From: Bacillus sp. Cs-700
Lineage (GTDB): Bacteria; Bacillota; Bacilli; Bacillales; Guptibacillaceae
Assembly: GCF_011082085.1 (NCBI RefSeq)
Contig: NZ_CP041063.1
Location: forward strand, 3,644,001 to 3,708,000
Length of the DNA stretch: 64,000 bases
Direction: 5' to 3'
The notes under the pieces were generated by a model. It was not told where the DNA came from. It saw only the letters and a program-made list of their open reading frames with translations, and did no database searches. Positions 11,275 through 52,902 of the stretch are shown in pieces. Position 1 is the first letter of the stretch. Each line of letters opens with the position of its first letter. The translations under genes were made by a program, and so were the position numbers.

Positions 11275-11303
11275 TTTACACCGGGGAATCGGACTGGTAT
11301 TAT
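11275..11303 (+). promoter_or_regulatory. sigma-A promoter of the T-box leader
   Basis: TTTACA (11275-11280), exactly 17 bases, TATTAT (11298-11303); both hexamers 5 of 6. Begins 4 bases after the ppsA stop. Expected transcription start near 11310. Confidence 0.7.
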
Positions 11304-11309
11304 ATAACA

Positions 11310-11593
11310 AAATCAAATGCAATGATGAGAAGAGTAGATGATGGGATCTTACACAGAGAGCTCCGGTAGCTGAAAAGGAGAGAAGATCACATGGTTGAAC
11401 CAAACCTCTGAGCTGTACATCGGAACCGAACGTGGGGATGGTGTAACGGGAGTTCCCGTTAACGAGCTAAGGTATAAGCAGCTTCTGCCGTACCTGATAA
11501 GAGTCATGTGGCGACACATGACTGAACCGGGGTGGCACCGCGATAAGCAATCTCGCCCCCGGGACAATACGTCCTGGGGGTGAGATTTTTTTA
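11310..11593 (+). ncRNA. T-box riboswitch leader (specifier most likely CAA, Gln)
   Basis: A complete T-box leader. The T-box itself is GGGGTGGCACCGCG (11529-11542). Stem I shows AGTA (11333-11336, 5' side of the specifier loop), the AGAGAGC / GGTAGCTG distal elements, and GAAC-CAA-A (11397-11404) on the 3' side. Helix GATGATGGGATCTT / AAGATCACATGGTT above the loop has equal arms, so the codon aligned with GGC of the glyQS T-box is CAA at 11401-11403. The bulge is UGGC, expecting a tRNA with discriminator G, which allows Gln, Asn or Trp but not Thr or Pro. Stem III is GTCATGT/ACATGAC. A terminator follows. T-box leaders read uncharged tRNA and open the gene downstream, here an MFS transporter. 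Confidence 0.92.
11549..11592 (+). terminator. T-box leader terminator
   Basis: GC-rich stem, ATCTCGCCCCCGGGAC pairing with GTCCTGGGGGTGAGAT around a 5-base loop, followed by seven T. Its 5' arm lies just after the T-box sequence, which would pair in the alternative antiterminator. Confidence 0.9.
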
Positions 11594-11631
11594 TTGGTTC
11601 AAAAACTTATCGCGAACGGAGCTGACTTGTC

Positions 11632-12861
11632 ATGAAACGTCTTAGTGCTATTCGAAAGAACGACCTGCTGTTGCTTACATCAATGGGGATTACAAATATC
11701 GGAGGATGGGTTTATCATATTGCCCTTAATCTCATCCTATTGGATCAAACGGGTTCAGCTCTCGCTGTGACGGGACTGTATTTACTCAAGCCGTTCGCCA
11801 CTCTGTTCACAAATCCCTGGGCAGGCAGCTTGATTGATCGCGTGAACAAACGAAGGCTAATGATTTTGGTGAATATCGCTCAGGCTTTGGTGATGTTTCT
11901 TCTCCCCCTGCTATCTAGTCTATGGATGATTTATGCGCTTGTTTTTCTGATTAACATGGGTAGCTCGATTTTTCATCCAACATCAATGACATACATGACG
12001 AAGCTTGTTCCTAAAGAAAGGCGCATTCGTTTCAATTCCCTTCGTAGCCTGGTCGATTCAGGTGCATTTGTAATCGGTCCAGCGATTGCTGGTGTGTTAT
12101 TTATCATCGGAACGCCAACCAATGCCATTTACCTTAATGCTGGAGCATTAATTCTTGCTGGACTGCTGTTTTTATTTCTACCTGATGTAGAAACAGGAAA
12201 ACTCATGAATCGATCAAGTACAATTACATTTCAAATGATGAAGGAAGATTGGCGCGTTGTATACACGTTTAGCCAAAGCGCCATTTTTGTTATTCTCATT
12301 TACTTTCTAGTGAGTGCAGTTGGCATCATGAGCTGGGGAGTAGATTCACTTGAAGCAAGCTTCGCAACAGATGTCCTTCATCTGACAAACACCGAATATG
12401 GATTTCTCGTAAGTATTGCTGGAATCGGAGTTCTTCTAGGAGCCATTCTAAATACCGTTATTGCAGAAAAAGGAGAGCCGCTTTCGTTAATAGGAGGGGG
12501 AGCGATCGTGCTTTCCATTGGTTATCTGGTATTTGCTTTATCGTCATCATTTCAGTTAGCCGCGATCGGCTGCTTTGTTCTTTCCTTTTCTCTTTCATTC
12601 ATGAATACAGGTTTCTACACTTTTTATCAAAACAATATTCCCGTTGACGTTATGGGGAGGATTGGCAGTTTGTTCGAATGGATTGAGGCGATTTTTGTTA
12701 TTGCTGTGATGGTCGGCTGCGGAATAGCGGCAGAACTCATATCCATACGGTTTAGTGTGATTGTAGGCTCAAGTATGATGCTAAGCTTTGCTTTTCTTCT
12801 TCTAGGAGTTGTTATGGTCAAACGAACGAGTATGAGATCCAAAGCAGAACTGGCTAAATAG
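11632..12861 (+). CDS. MFS transporter (MFS_3 / enterobactin-exporter-like), T-box controlled
   Basis: 409 residues with about 12 hydrophobic helices. The MFS signature between helices 2 and 3 is GSLIDRVNKRRLMI. Overall pattern (short loops, GWVYHIALNLILLDQTGS start) is that of the MFS_3 group that includes exporters of siderophores, drugs and metabolites. The direction and substrate cannot be read from sequence, but the T-box leader implies a role tied to one amino acid, probably glutamine (or asparagine/tryptophan): uptake of the amino acid or a peptide, or export of a compound made when it is short. ATG 11632 has GGAG 10 bases upstream. Confidence 0.8.
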   Translation: MKRLSAIRKNDLLLLTSMGITNIGGWVYHIALNLILLDQTGSALAVTGLYLLKPFATLFTNPWAGSLIDRVNKRRLMILVNIAQALVMFLLPLLSSLWMIYALVFLINMGSSIFHPTSMTYMTKLVPKERRIRFNSLRSLVDSGAFVIGPAIAGVLFIIGTPTNAIYLNAGALILAGLLFLFLPDVETGKLMNRSSTITFQMMKEDWRVVYTFSQSAIFVILIYFLVSAVGIMSWGVDSLEASFATDVLHLTNTEYGFLVSIAGIGVLLGAILNTVIAEKGEPLSLIGGGAIVLSIGYLVFALSSSFQLAAIGCFVLSFSLSFMNTGFYTFYQNNIPVDVMGRIGSLFEWIEAIFVIAVMVGCGIAAELISIRFSVIVGSSMMLSFAFLLLGVVMVKRTSMRSKAELAK

Positions 12862-13093: not shown

Positions 13094-13157
13094 CATTTTA
13101 TCATGTGTTGTATATCCGCTATATTCTGCAACTAAAAAAAACGATGGAGGATCGATA

Positions 13158-13724
13158 ATGAAAAAAATACTTGTTTTAACGATTGCAAGTCTACTCATGT
13201 TTGGGAATTTAACATACGCCCACACTGGAATAGAAAGTTCTAACCCAGAGGATGGAAGTACGATCACAGAGGAGTTAACCACAGTAACGCTCACTTTCGA
13301 AACAGAAATAGAGGAAACAAGCTCATTTGAATTACAAAATGCAAGTGGTGAAACGGTAGCTGTTGATAACATCACTGTTGAAAACAATACGATGACTGGG
13401 ACGTTTGATGAGCCAATTGCAAACGGAGATTATGAAGTGCCGTGGAAAATTATTGGAATTGATGGTCATCCGATCGAAGGAACGTTTTCTTTTTCAGTAG
13501 ACGCACCTGAATCAGAAATTGCGGAAGAAGAAGAAGAGTCAACTTCTGAAGAAGCAACAAACGGTTCAGCAGAAGATACAGATGAACAAGTGGATAAAGA
13601 AGAAGAGACGAAGACAGATACGGCTGAAGAAGAAAGTTCTAACGGTACAGTAATTGGCATCGTTATTGCTGTCCTCGTTATCGTACTCCTTGGAAGTGTT
13701 TTGTTGATGAGGAGGAAAAAATAA
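13158..13724 (+). CDS. CopC-domain protein, membrane anchored
   Basis: 188 residues. Signal peptide (MKKILVLTIASLLMFGNLTYA) predicted to be cut before His22, giving a mature N-terminal His as in CopC copper-binding proteins, where it takes part in a histidine-brace Cu(II) site. CopC domain residues ~22-120, with the second likely ligand in GIDGHPIEGTFSF. Then a ~45-residue acidic Glu/Thr/Ser linker and a C-terminal helix ending RRKK, so the domain is tethered to the outer membrane face. GGAGG precedes ATG 13158. Forms a pair with the CopD-type gene 3 bases downstream. Confidence 0.85.
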   Translation: MKKILVLTIASLLMFGNLTYAHTGIESSNPEDGSTITEELTTVTLTFETEIEETSSFELQNASGETVAVDNITVENNTMTGTFDEPIANGDYEVPWKIIGIDGHPIEGTFSFSVDAPESEIAEEEEESTSEEATNGSAEDTDEQVDKEEETKTDTAEEESSNGTVIGIVIAVLVIVLLGSVLLMRRKK

Positions 13725-13727
13725 TCC

Positions 13728-14831
13728 ATGTTGATTCTAACAGTAATCAGTGAAGCGCTGCTTTATATTAGCTTTGCGCTACTGATTGCGGATTATCTTT
13801 TCTCATTTATTTCACATGATAAAAAGCCGTTTATTCATATTCCTAAAAAAATCCGTCTTTTGGCTGCAGGAGGAATTGCGCTTTTTTCCTTCATGCCGAT
13901 TTTGGATTTACTTCTTTATTTATATGAGGACTATGGAATTAGACAAGCACTGTCGTCGGTATTAGTTACATTTAAAGTTGGTCAGGCTTGGAGTTTTACC
14001 GTTCTTCTGTCCATTATTTTAACCCTTTATATTCTTTTTGTTGATGATGGACAGGAGAAGAGGTACCCATTCATCGGTGTGGCTCTTCTTCTGTTTCTCA
14101 TTTTGGGCCTGGGGTGGGCGAGCCATTCAAGCTCTCTTCATCCAGTTAAAGGTTTCATTGTTCACACGATACACTTTACGGCTGTTGTTACGTGGGTAGG
14201 AGTACTTTTTGTCGTAAGTTGGTTTTCAAAAAACGCGGCAAACTGGACGCATTTTCTGAAGTGGTTTCATCCTACCGCTATGATCTGTTTCACAGTAGTA
14301 GGAATCACAGGGCTATTGTTAATGCAGTTTGTTATTCCATTACAAGATTATCCTGATACATGGATGGTTTCTTACGGACAAAGCTTATTAATTAAACACT
14401 TGCTCATTGTCCCACTACTTGGATATGCCTTCCTGAATGGCGTGATCATGAAAAGAAAGCTTAAAGAGAGAAATGCATTTGATCCTAGACCGTGGACAAA
14501 AGTAGAATCCGTAATGGTGTTACTGATTTTTGCCGCTACGGGTGCGATGAGTCACTCTTCCCCTCCAAACAATTTGGCTTCTCTCATTAGTCTTGAAGGC
14601 GTATCTCCGCTATTTACGCTATTCACAAACGGCTTAGTTCAACCTGGTGCCTCTATTGGATTAGTCTTTAACGTGAATGGGCTTTTGCTTGGCGCTTTAG
14701 CAGTCGTGTTTATGGTGGTGATGATTGCTGGATTTATGAAAAAAATGGCACCACTTTTTTCGTTTCTAATGAGCGTCTTGTTTATCATATCAGGCTATTT
14801 AGCGTTGCTACAAAGCGTACAATTTATATAA
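13728..14831 (+). CDS. CopD-family membrane protein
   Basis: 367 residues, nine or so hydrophobic helices. Conserved CopD features: H-S-S-S-L-H-P and VHTIHFTAVVTWVGVLFVVSW in the middle, KHLLIVPLLGYAFLNG, and GAMSHSSPP near residue 280. CopC and CopD together move copper across the membrane in other bacteria; in B. subtilis the two are fused as YcnJ, a copper importer. Here they are separate genes. ATG 13728 lies 4 bases after the copC stop, with GGAGG inside the end of copC. Terminator at 14837. Confidence 0.85.
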   Translation: MLILTVISEALLYISFALLIADYLFSFISHDKKPFIHIPKKIRLLAAGGIALFSFMPILDLLLYLYEDYGIRQALSSVLVTFKVGQAWSFTVLLSIILTLYILFVDDGQEKRYPFIGVALLLFLILGLGWASHSSSLHPVKGFIVHTIHFTAVVTWVGVLFVVSWFSKNAANWTHFLKWFHPTAMICFTVVGITGLLLMQFVIPLQDYPDTWMVSYGQSLLIKHLLIVPLLGYAFLNGVIMKRKLKERNAFDPRPWTKVESVMVLLIFAATGAMSHSSPPNNLASLISLEGVSPLFTLFTNGLVQPGASIGLVFNVNGLLLGALAVVFMVVMIAGFMKKMAPLFSFLMSVLFIISGYLALLQSVQFI

Positions 14832-51238: not shown

Positions 51239-52531
51239 TTAAAGAAAGATGAAATAAAGAATAAATAAGCCACCGAGCGTATACATAATCGGGTGAACTT
51301 GCTTCCATTCTTTTTTCGCGATCATCGCAAAAGGATAAAGAATAAAGCCAAGTGCAATTCCTGTTGCAACGCTAAACGTAAGAGGCATCATAATGATTGT
51401 CACAAATGCGGGGATAACCACTTCTAATCGGCTCCAATCAATCTGCTTTACCTCAGTTGCCATAAGGGCCCCGACGATGATGAGGGCTGGAGCGGTCACT
51501 TCAGGTGTGATGACGCCAAGAATAGGCGAGAAGAACAGCGCAATGAAGAAGCAGGCTGAAATAACGACAGATGTAAACCCAGTTCGGCCACCAACGGCAA
51601 CCCCGGCAGAAGACTCTACGAAAGAGGCAGTTGTTGATGTACCAAATATCGCTCCGACAACTCCTGATGTTGAGTCCGCAAGTAGGGCGCGTCCTGCATT
51701 TGGAATTTGATTGTCTTTCATAAGACCAGCTTGACTGGCAACGGCGATAAGAGCGCCTGCTGTGTCGAAGAAAGCAACGAATAAGAACGTGAAAATAACA
51801 GCTAGTATTTCAGGTGTGAAAATATCTCCTAAATGCTGAAAAACAACGCCAAACGTTGGCTCAAGGCTCGGTACCTGTCCAACCACTGAAGTAGGAACTT
51901 GCACAAGACCGATGATCATCCCAATGATCGTTGTAATTACAATTCCATAAAAGATTCCACCTCGAATACCGCGAATCAGCATCATCAGCGTAATAATAAA
52001 TCCGAAAGCAGCTAACGCTGTTGTTGGTGTTGTCAGCTGTCCGATTGAAATAAACGTTTCTTCGCTCCCAACAACAATCCCTGCATTTTTAAGACCAACA
52101 AAAGCAATAAAGAAGCCGATTCCAGCTGCAATGGCGTGCTTGAGGTCTTTTGGAATCACGTTAATAATTTTCTCGCGGATTTTCAGTAAGCTAAGAATCA
52201 TAAAGATAATACCAGCAATAAACACGCCTGTTAGAGCAATTTCCCAATCAATTCCCATTCCAATAACAACGGAGAAGGTGAAGAAAGAGTTAAGTCCCAT
52301 ACTTGGTGCGATACCAACAGGGAAGTTAGCAAGAATGCCAATAAGCAATGAGCCAACGATCGCGGACAAAGCGGTGGCAGTAAAGAGCGCTCCTTTATCA
52401 ATGCCGGCTTCACTTAAGATAATCGGATTCACAACTAATATATAAGCCATTGATAAAAAGGTTGTTATCCCGGCTAACGTTTCTTTTCGATAATTTGTTT
52501 CCCGTTCTGTGAACTGGAAAAAGTTTTTCAT
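51239..52531 (-). CDS. NCS2 purine permease (PbuG/PbuO type)
   Basis: 430 residues, 14 helices of the NCS2/AzgA subfamily. Motifs: FLSMAYILVVNP (residues ~23-34), MGLNSFFTFSVV, FFDTAGALIAVASQAGL and GTSTTASFVESSAGVAVGGRTG (the substrate-binding Glu/Ser region). Transports hypoxanthine/guanine (adenine for some) with protons. ATG 52531 follows CAGGAGG; upstream ATGs lie inside the riboswitch terminator. Controlled by a purine riboswitch, consistent with guanine or hypoxanthine uptake. Confidence 0.92.
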   Translation of the reverse strand: MKNFFQFTERETNYRKETLAGITTFLSMAYILVVNPIILSEAGIDKGALFTATALSAIVGSLLIGILANFPVGIAPSMGLNSFFTFSVVIGMGIDWEIALTGVFIAGIIFMILSLLKIREKIINVIPKDLKHAIAAGIGFFIAFVGLKNAGIVVGSEETFISIGQLTTPTTALAAFGFIITLMMLIRGIRGGIFYGIVITTIIGMIIGLVQVPTSVVGQVPSLEPTFGVVFQHLGDIFTPEILAVIFTFLFVAFFDTAGALIAVASQAGLMKDNQIPNAGRALLADSTSGVVGAIFGTSTTASFVESSAGVAVGGRTGFTSVVISACFFIALFFSPILGVITPEVTAPALIIVGALMATEVKQIDWSRLEVVIPAFVTIIMMPLTFSVATGIALGFILYPFAMIAKKEWKQVHPIMYTLGGLFILYFIFL

Positions 52532-52553
52532 GGTAGACCCTCCTGATTCAAAT

Positions 52554-52579
52554 AAAAAAACTCTGGCCAGAAACCAGAG
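52554..52579 (-). terminator. riboswitch terminator before the purine permease
   Basis: Minus strand CTCTGG / CCAGAG with a 7-base loop, then seven T. Confidence 0.85.
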
Positions 52580-52614
52580 CATCATCACAAGGAAATATGA
52601 AAAACTTCATAATT

Positions 52615-52682
52615 CCTTGTAGACAAGCCATTCTCGGTAGCTGGTAGAAACGTTCAGGCCCTATTCCTGAACTTATACAAGG
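52615..52682 (-). ncRNA. purine riboswitch (guanine/hypoxanthine class)
   Basis: Minus strand. P1 CCTTGTA / TACAAGG; P2 GTTCAGG / CCTGAAC with loop AATAGGG; core GTTTCTACC; P3 AGCT / GGCT with loop ACCGAGAAT. The base that pairs with the ligand (position 74 of the xpt aptamer) reads C in GTCTAC, so guanine or hypoxanthine rather than adenine. A second hairpin ACAAGGAATTATGAA / TTCATATTTCCTTGT would compete with P1. Confidence 0.92.
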
Positions 52683-52902
52683 TTTAGTCATATGATAAAT
52701 TTATAACGAGAATCATAACAATGAAGAAAAGACGGGTCAATCGTTTTCGTTAATGTTTCAGTATTCATTGTTTTCTAATTTGCATTACAAATATAAAAAT
52801 AAATAGGGAAATGTTAAAAATTATGTAATTTGTAAGAATACAAAACATTGAAGCCTATTATATGGTAATGTAAATATAAGACAAATATAGAGGGAGAGCG
52901 CT

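Follow-up and report, generated by a model that had tools for sequence, protein, structure and literature searches.

The window, which is the whole 64,000-nucleotide stretch of DNA that was analysed, carries an MFS transporter gene on its forward strand (11632-12861, 409 aa), exporter-like by the MFS_1 and MFS_3 matches of the ORF in the family search, with a T-box leader at 11313-11563 (+) in front of it. The leader was found with cmscan as a full-length match to the T-box family RF00230 (model positions 1-219), and its score of 98.4 bits exceeds the gathering threshold of 93 (E 2e-20). A site on the same strand (11275-11303) that resembles a sigma-70 promoter, TTTACA-17-TATTAT with a TG before the second hexamer, is a consensus match only and starts 4 bases 3' of the stop of the phosphoenolpyruvate synthase gene; one such site was found against 0.7 expected in shuffles, which is weak by itself. 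Judged by the closest named MFS orthologs, which are 92 percent identical and belong to Pseudalkalibacillus spartinae and Bacillus sp. RAR_GA_16 (from the best 80 of 470 matches, a set that may lack the window's own record or very close ones), the source of the window is a Pseudalkalibacillus-like bacterium.

The leader has the parts of the transcriptional class of RF00230, namely stem I, stem II, IIA/B, stem III, antiterminator and terminator. Stem I (11318-11415, +) scored 99.5 bits with R1, a covariance model of stem I only that was built from 20 MFS leaders including that of the window. The stem IIA/B region (11447-11468, +), placed by RF00230 and the leader alignment, is formed by CGGGAGTTCCCG and a downstream GAGCT, the pseudoknot partner being assigned by eye. 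A further conserved hairpin, about 24 nt long and absent from the RF00230 model, lies between IIA/B and stem III (GGTATAAGCAG..CTGCCGTACC, 11471-11494, +), and the outer six pairs of this insert (columns 163-168 with 190-195) are formed in 20 or 21 of 21 aligned leaders. Stem III follows at 11501-11523 (+), placed by RF00230 and with compensatory changes (columns 202-210 with 215-223), and then the T-box sequence GGGGTGGCACCGCG (11529-11542, +), whose bulge UGGC (11533-11536) puts C11536 opposite the discriminator base 73.

The fold of the intrinsic terminator (11549-11587, +), which is followed by a U run, has 17 pairs and is far more stable than its shuffles (-33.3 kcal/mol, z -8.15). The antiterminator stretch by itself reached -13.4 kcal/mol (z -1.35), and 18 of 200 shuffles were as low. 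The two are mutually exclusive, as the 5' arm of the terminator, near 11549-11559 and 5' of the MFS gene, is also used by the antiterminator. The sequence-only reading had described a complete T-box with stem I and terminator, and the full-length family match and the strong terminator fold bear this out. In the 21-leader alignment the mean column identity was 76 percent, and for 29 of the 77 predicted pairs one leader or more showed a change of both partners. In the RNAalifold consensus the U run is paired with the bottom of stem I, a pairing that was taken as an artefact; the structure of model R1 has the lower stem.

Specifier codon and tRNA fit

The specifier was read from the Rfam alignment as the three bases ending one base before the lower stem. 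In the window this gives CAA (Gln) at 11401-11403 (+), and the specifier loop reads GAA(11397-11399)-C-CAA(11401-11403)-A on its 3' side, just as had been claimed from the letters alone. The rule was checked on the 19 other T-boxes of the home genome, whose genes were named by family search, and it gave a fitting codon in 16 of the 17 with a clear amino acid or pathway: tyrS, serS, valS, two trpS, leuS, a second tyrS, argS, proC, pheS, cysE, thrS, ileS, glyS, alaS and ilvB, the T-box of the last, a branched-chain gene, reading Ile. The sole misfit was the hisS T-box, which reads GAC (Asp); in B. subtilis, aspS comes next after hisS. The remaining two T-boxes precede transporters. One, which reads UUC, is before an NSS-type protein that was identified by eye and had no family hit at 1e-60, and the other is before NhaC (UAC). 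The codon was settled by eye in 4 of the 19 (NSS, NhaC, glyS and ilvB), where extra bases are inserted at the loop in the alignment. CAA was read by none of the 19.

ARAGORN was run on 15 stretches and 75 tRNA genes were read, 78 places being listed and a few of them uncovered. Among these 75 genes there are four for tRNA-Gln, all with the anticodon UUG, and other Gln anticodons were absent. G73 is followed by CCA in three of the four, and the fourth has the same G, with CCA not encoded as called. G73 was also found in the Asn, Asp and Trp tRNAs and in two Ser tRNAs; tRNA-Pro has A73 and tRNA-Thr A or T. The UGGC bulge fits the G73 tRNAs and the specifier is CAA, therefore Gln alone is left. 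The earlier expectation that UGGC calls for G73, suits tRNA-Gln and excludes Thr and Pro agrees with these tRNA genes.

Conservation of the leader with the MFS gene

The MFS protein was searched in 199 genomes at E 1e-60, which gave 123 match rows in 106 genomes, and the upstream DNA of all 123 was taken. A leader profile trained on 29 of these loci (CAA leaders) found 65 leaders at the 123 matches, spread over 65 genomes, 34 genera and 23 families. CAA was read in all 65. The base before it was C in 35, G in 14, A in 12, T in 3 and a gap in 1, the base after it G in 47, A in 16 and C in 2, and the bulge was UGGC in 63 and UGGU in 2. In the named loci (the best 80 of 470, overlapping in part with the 199 genomes) the leader was matched in 77 of 80 and had stem I in 74, all reading CAA; three of the exceptions had only the 3' part and three had no leader match. 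When both sets were pooled there were 126 distinct leaders, 123 of them with stem I, and CAA was kept in 123 of 123, so that the comparison of orthologous leaders upholds the Gln codon. For all of the 29 loci L022-L050 but one (L035), that is 28, Rfam itself places a T-box before the MFS gene.

FastTree, applied to the 123 MFS proteins, gave a tree in which the leader is present in 65 of the 69 proteins on one side of a branch and in 0 of the 54 on the other. Its presence needs only 4 changes on the tree, and shuffles need 41 on average (the root is at the midpoint and some branches are long). This distribution shows that the transporter T-box is old and has for the most part been passed down together with its gene, and was not picked up locally in recent times. 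The T-box core motif was absent upstream in all 58 non-matching rows of the 123. The loci read by eye (10 of these 58, all within L021-L128, with the three non-matching and three partial named loci) had decayed leaders or none. The leader has been lost or has decayed in 4 of the 69 clade members and in 6 of the 80 named loci, indicating that the regulation is dispensable in some lineages.

Decayed leaders were seen before the MFS genes of L035 (G193), L186, L188 and L203 (Peribacillus), where traces of the terminator region can still be seen. In Paucisalibacillus globulus (L211) there are tandem Gln T-boxes upstream of the MFS gene, the first of which is followed by an apparently broken MFS copy; the gene and its T-box seem to have been duplicated together.

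The possibility that the leader is the leftover of a lost neighbouring synthetase gene was considered and dropped, as the T-box motif is close to the MFS match, at a distance of at most 283 nt with a median of 105 (64 leaders with the short motif; the smallest values may be chance matches). No constant operon partner was found 3' of the MFS gene by size or strand in the stop-to-stop frames of 30 loci, and an opposing frame is often there. The window has CopC- and CopD-domain genes 3' of the MFS gene on the same strand (13152-14831, +), and many of the 30 loci have an opposing frame.

Leaders of the same lineage before GlnRS and other genes

With R1 the window leader, itself one of the training leaders, scored 99.5 bits, as against at most 49.3 for the other T-boxes of the home genome. 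R1 was then run on 101 genomes, where it gave strong matches outside MFS leaders, and 47 of the matches listed were read. CAA was found in 7 of the 47, all before GlnRS genes. In the other 41 genomes with GlnRS, the search turned up an eighth GlnRS leader (G142) as well as a leader before a DUF5662 gene (G132).

GlnRS was found in 78 of the 199 genomes, with two matches in 8 and one in 70. A CAA leader of the same lineage stands at one GlnRS gene in 8 of the 8 genomes with two matches, and it is always the lower-scoring one; two of these genes are imperfect, that of G022 having an in-frame stop and that of G080 being a partial match. By eye, no R1 match among those listed lies at the single GlnRS gene of the 70 one-GlnRS genomes, and the T-box MFS is absent from all 8 two-GlnRS genomes. 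Identity to the window leader is 72-79 percent for the 8 GlnRS leaders, compared with 39-56 percent for the 19 other home T-boxes. The GlnRS leaders share the lineage, CAA in the same column and the extra hairpin with the MFS leaders, but they drive a synthetase, and in 7 of the 8 the bulge is UGGU, which pairs with G73 (as read in the window's genome) by wobble only. A leader of this lineage before second GlnRS genes gives independent support for Gln specificity.

In the genome G132, which also has a T-box MFS, a Gln-lineage T-box (L366, 1501-1598, CAA and UGGU) precedes a DUF5662 gene at 1830-2336. This gene is, by the leader's homology, a putative third kind of target of the Gln lineage.

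The other R1 matches among the 47 belong to different specificities, and their genes were mostly named by eye. LysRS leaders read AAA (7, and one more before a class I LysRS-like gene), as does an Asd leader, and MetRS leaders read AUG, several with the codon one base off the model column. GNAT acetyltransferases stand behind AAA (Lys) T-boxes at L316, L323, L324, L329 and L340 (L316 by search, the rest by eye). Genes like those of SAM hydroxide adenosyltransferases stand behind AUG (Met) T-boxes at L321, L333, L341, L343, L345 and L346 (L333 by search, the rest by eye), and three of these six AUG codons are off the model column. L307, L330 and L332 are R1 matches before genes that were left unnamed. 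In the leader tree the GlnRS leaders fall among the MFS leaders, with weak forks and long branches, and the LysRS (AAA) leaders are found there too. The outgroup does not form one side of a branch, so that the tree does not show a direction of transfer.

Charging of tRNA-Gln in the home genome and its relatives

No GlnRS was found over the cut-off in the home genome, where the best match to TIGR00440 had 53 bits against 425.8 and is probably the genome's GluRS gene. GatA is present once in the home genome and in 199 of 199 genomes. The earlier assumption that tRNA-Gln is charged through amidation of Glu-tRNA therefore holds for the home genome and not for all of its relatives, 78 of 199 having GlnRS. 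In cells without GlnRS, tRNA-Gln is charged with glutamate and then amidated, as stated in passages of PMC2494555. For the home genome, without GlnRS and with GatA, this means that tRNA-Gln must be loaded with glutamate before it is amidated.

T-boxes sense the free 3' end of the tRNA, and either aminoacyl ester should block the antiterminator. The glutamyl and the glutaminyl ester would therefore both silence the switch, and it would report the action of GluRS. We infer that the input of the switch should be the action of GluRS on tRNA-Gln, that is glutamate supply or GluRS inhibition, and not glutamine. In a cell without GlnRS, a Gln T-box is by itself no pointer to glutamine as a substrate or a signal.

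Of the genomes with a T-box MFS, 57 are without GlnRS and 8 have it, and in the other 134 genomes the numbers are 64 and 70. With relatedness counted, this negative association becomes weaker, with p values of 0.016 by genus, 0.08 by family and 0.06 within families. A rule of mutual exclusion between the T-box MFS and GlnRS was dropped, as 8 genomes have both and the tendency is weaker within families.

Discussion

It is very probable that a Gln T-box controls the MFS gene. The case is built on the leader architecture, the CAA codon, the fit to the cell's own tRNA-Gln, the long conservation with one MFS clade and the homology to the leaders of second GlnRS genes. The leader would act as a transcription-attenuating T-box riboswitch in which the CAA specifier binds tRNA-Gln(UUG) and the UGGC bulge engages it when its 3' end is free. 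The MFS gene would be read through only when uncharged tRNA-Gln accumulates, in vivo switching being inferred from the parts of the leader. Without GlnRS, it would be GluRS that loads glutamate on this tRNA first.

Two explanations would take away the Gln control itself. If the specifier were in another frame it could be AAC (Asn) or CCA (Pro), which both occur in the window sequence, or the upstream UGG (Trp), and tRNA-Asn and tRNA-Trp do carry G73. However, the base 5' of CAA is C, A, G or T across the leaders, which breaks AAC and CCA, tRNA-Pro has A73, and CAA occupies the same column in the GlnRS leaders. The UGG columns (27-29) pair with 83-85 and show compensatory changes in the 21 leaders; the earlier placing of UGG inside a helix thus stands for the family, although the window itself has a G-G mismatch at one of the three pairs. 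All three readings were therefore rejected, Asn having been kept as an alternative in the sequence-only reading, and the chance that one of them is right is minute. CAA as the Gln specifier is supported by its invariance in related MFS leaders and its place before GlnRS genes. A leader acquired with the gene that has lost its switching in this species would be in keeping with the decayed leaders retained by some relatives (L035; L168, L186, L188). However, every leader part is present in the window, and the identity and two-sided pair changes given above argue against a relic, which we consider very improbable.

What the MFS protein carries is a separate matter. It scored over the Pfam gathering thresholds for MFS_1 (PF07690, 116.8 against 33.4) and MFS_3 (PF05977, 48 against 27), and 13 of 13 orthologs in alignment A1 match both models at E 0.001. 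It is not a member of the H+ antiporter family TIGR00900 (136.1 bits against a cut-off of 319.6), and its matches to EntS and Mef are likewise below their cut-offs. NorA structures were the only solved relatives found by sequence, and a PADLOC scan of the protein found 0 families. The matches to MFS_3 and the antiporter family, together with the NorA relatives, suggest export, and the protein is probably an exporter. The pairing of the T-box with an MFS_3-type carrier, from which a functional hint had been drawn, is conserved, and the MFS_3 match is over the gathering score. In the alternative, the protein would take up glutamate, glutamine or small peptides in which these abound, with the T-box boosting uptake when tRNA-Gln is empty. 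Transporters under T-box control are read as amino-acid transporters in passages of PMC2494555, which counts against an exporter role. However, the best family matches are to export families (MFS_3, and below their cut-offs TIGR00900, EntS and Mef), and the solved relatives are those of NorA; an importer is accordingly a doubtful, though serious, candidate.

For an exporter, a cell that is short of charged tRNA-Gln would have little reason to export glutamate or glutamine, which favours the export of a harmful compound. The MFS protein could then expel an inhibitor of tRNA-Gln charging, by the logic of spare synthetase genes that are driven by T-boxes, and we regard export of a compound that hinders this charging as a reasonable possibility that falls somewhat short of an even chance, and favour it over import. 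More tentatively, there may be a small Gln T-box regulon, common to many Bacillales, that protects tRNA-Gln charging, with the exporter mostly in lineages with GluRS and GatCAB, where the switch would sense the failure of GluRS and the exporter would expel a natural inhibitor, and with a spare GlnRS in some of the GlnRS owners; this wider proposal is more likely wrong than right.

T-boxes and the rare Gln class are already known (PMC7778990). In passages of the TBDB paper, CAA accounts for 95 percent of the specifiers of Gln T-boxes, a class that ranks among the least frequent, and no MFS target is named for it (PMC7778990). The sequence-only reading held that a Gln T-box would be unusual here; the T-box-MFS pair is widely conserved. 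In Wels et al. 2008, as far as its consulted parts go, a T-box before one MFS gene of the Bacillus cereus group is assigned to Lys in Table 1, Fig. 6C includes MFS and has in its key a Pro-or-Gln class but no Lys, and the legend of Fig. 3 mentions degenerated boxes in that MFS cluster (PMC2494555). The same parts judge the MFS association very species-specific and transporter T-boxes lineage-limited acquisitions (PMC2494555). That gene is a candidate ortholog; in contrast, the pair described here belongs to one clade, covers 23 families and has CAA in every leader with stem I. No Gln T-box exporter and no T-box before a Bacillales GlnRS was found in a literature search by titles and abstract openings, and an earlier report in print is possible; Gln terms do not occur in the review PMC7583486. 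New as far as these searches reach are the specificity now settled for this clade, the finding that the pair is old and widespread, the lineage shared with second GlnRS genes and the reading of the switch as a GluRS sensor.

If the MFS gene of Wels et al. is an ortholog, a specificity that had been left between Lys, Pro and Gln is now settled. A family of uncharacterised transporters would be tied to tRNA-Gln charging, and in cells free of GlnRS the question is posed of whether a T-box tells glutamyl- from glutaminyl-tRNA-Gln or reports GluRS only. Should the exported compound be an inhibitor, the clade is a pointer to naturally occurring inhibitors of GluRS or GlnRS. If the regulon reading is true, the switch would sense the failure of GluRS via a tRNA that is misacylated as a regular step of its charging.

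Other regulatory elements were seen in the window and its genome. A purine riboswitch aptamer (RF00167, 76.1 bits) lies at 52600-52700 (-) of the window, before a permease-like ORF of 449 aa at 51239-52588 (-) that is probably, by eye, a purine permease. Elsewhere in the same genome, the UUC (Phe) T-box before the NSS-type transporter (L003, 1501-1703, by eye) has a counterpart described for the B. cereus group in passages of PMC2494555. A c-di-GMP-I riboswitch (66.9 bits) is found at L018 (1140-1228), and about 270 nt farther downstream is the Gly T-box that belongs to the gene for glycyl-tRNA synthetase.
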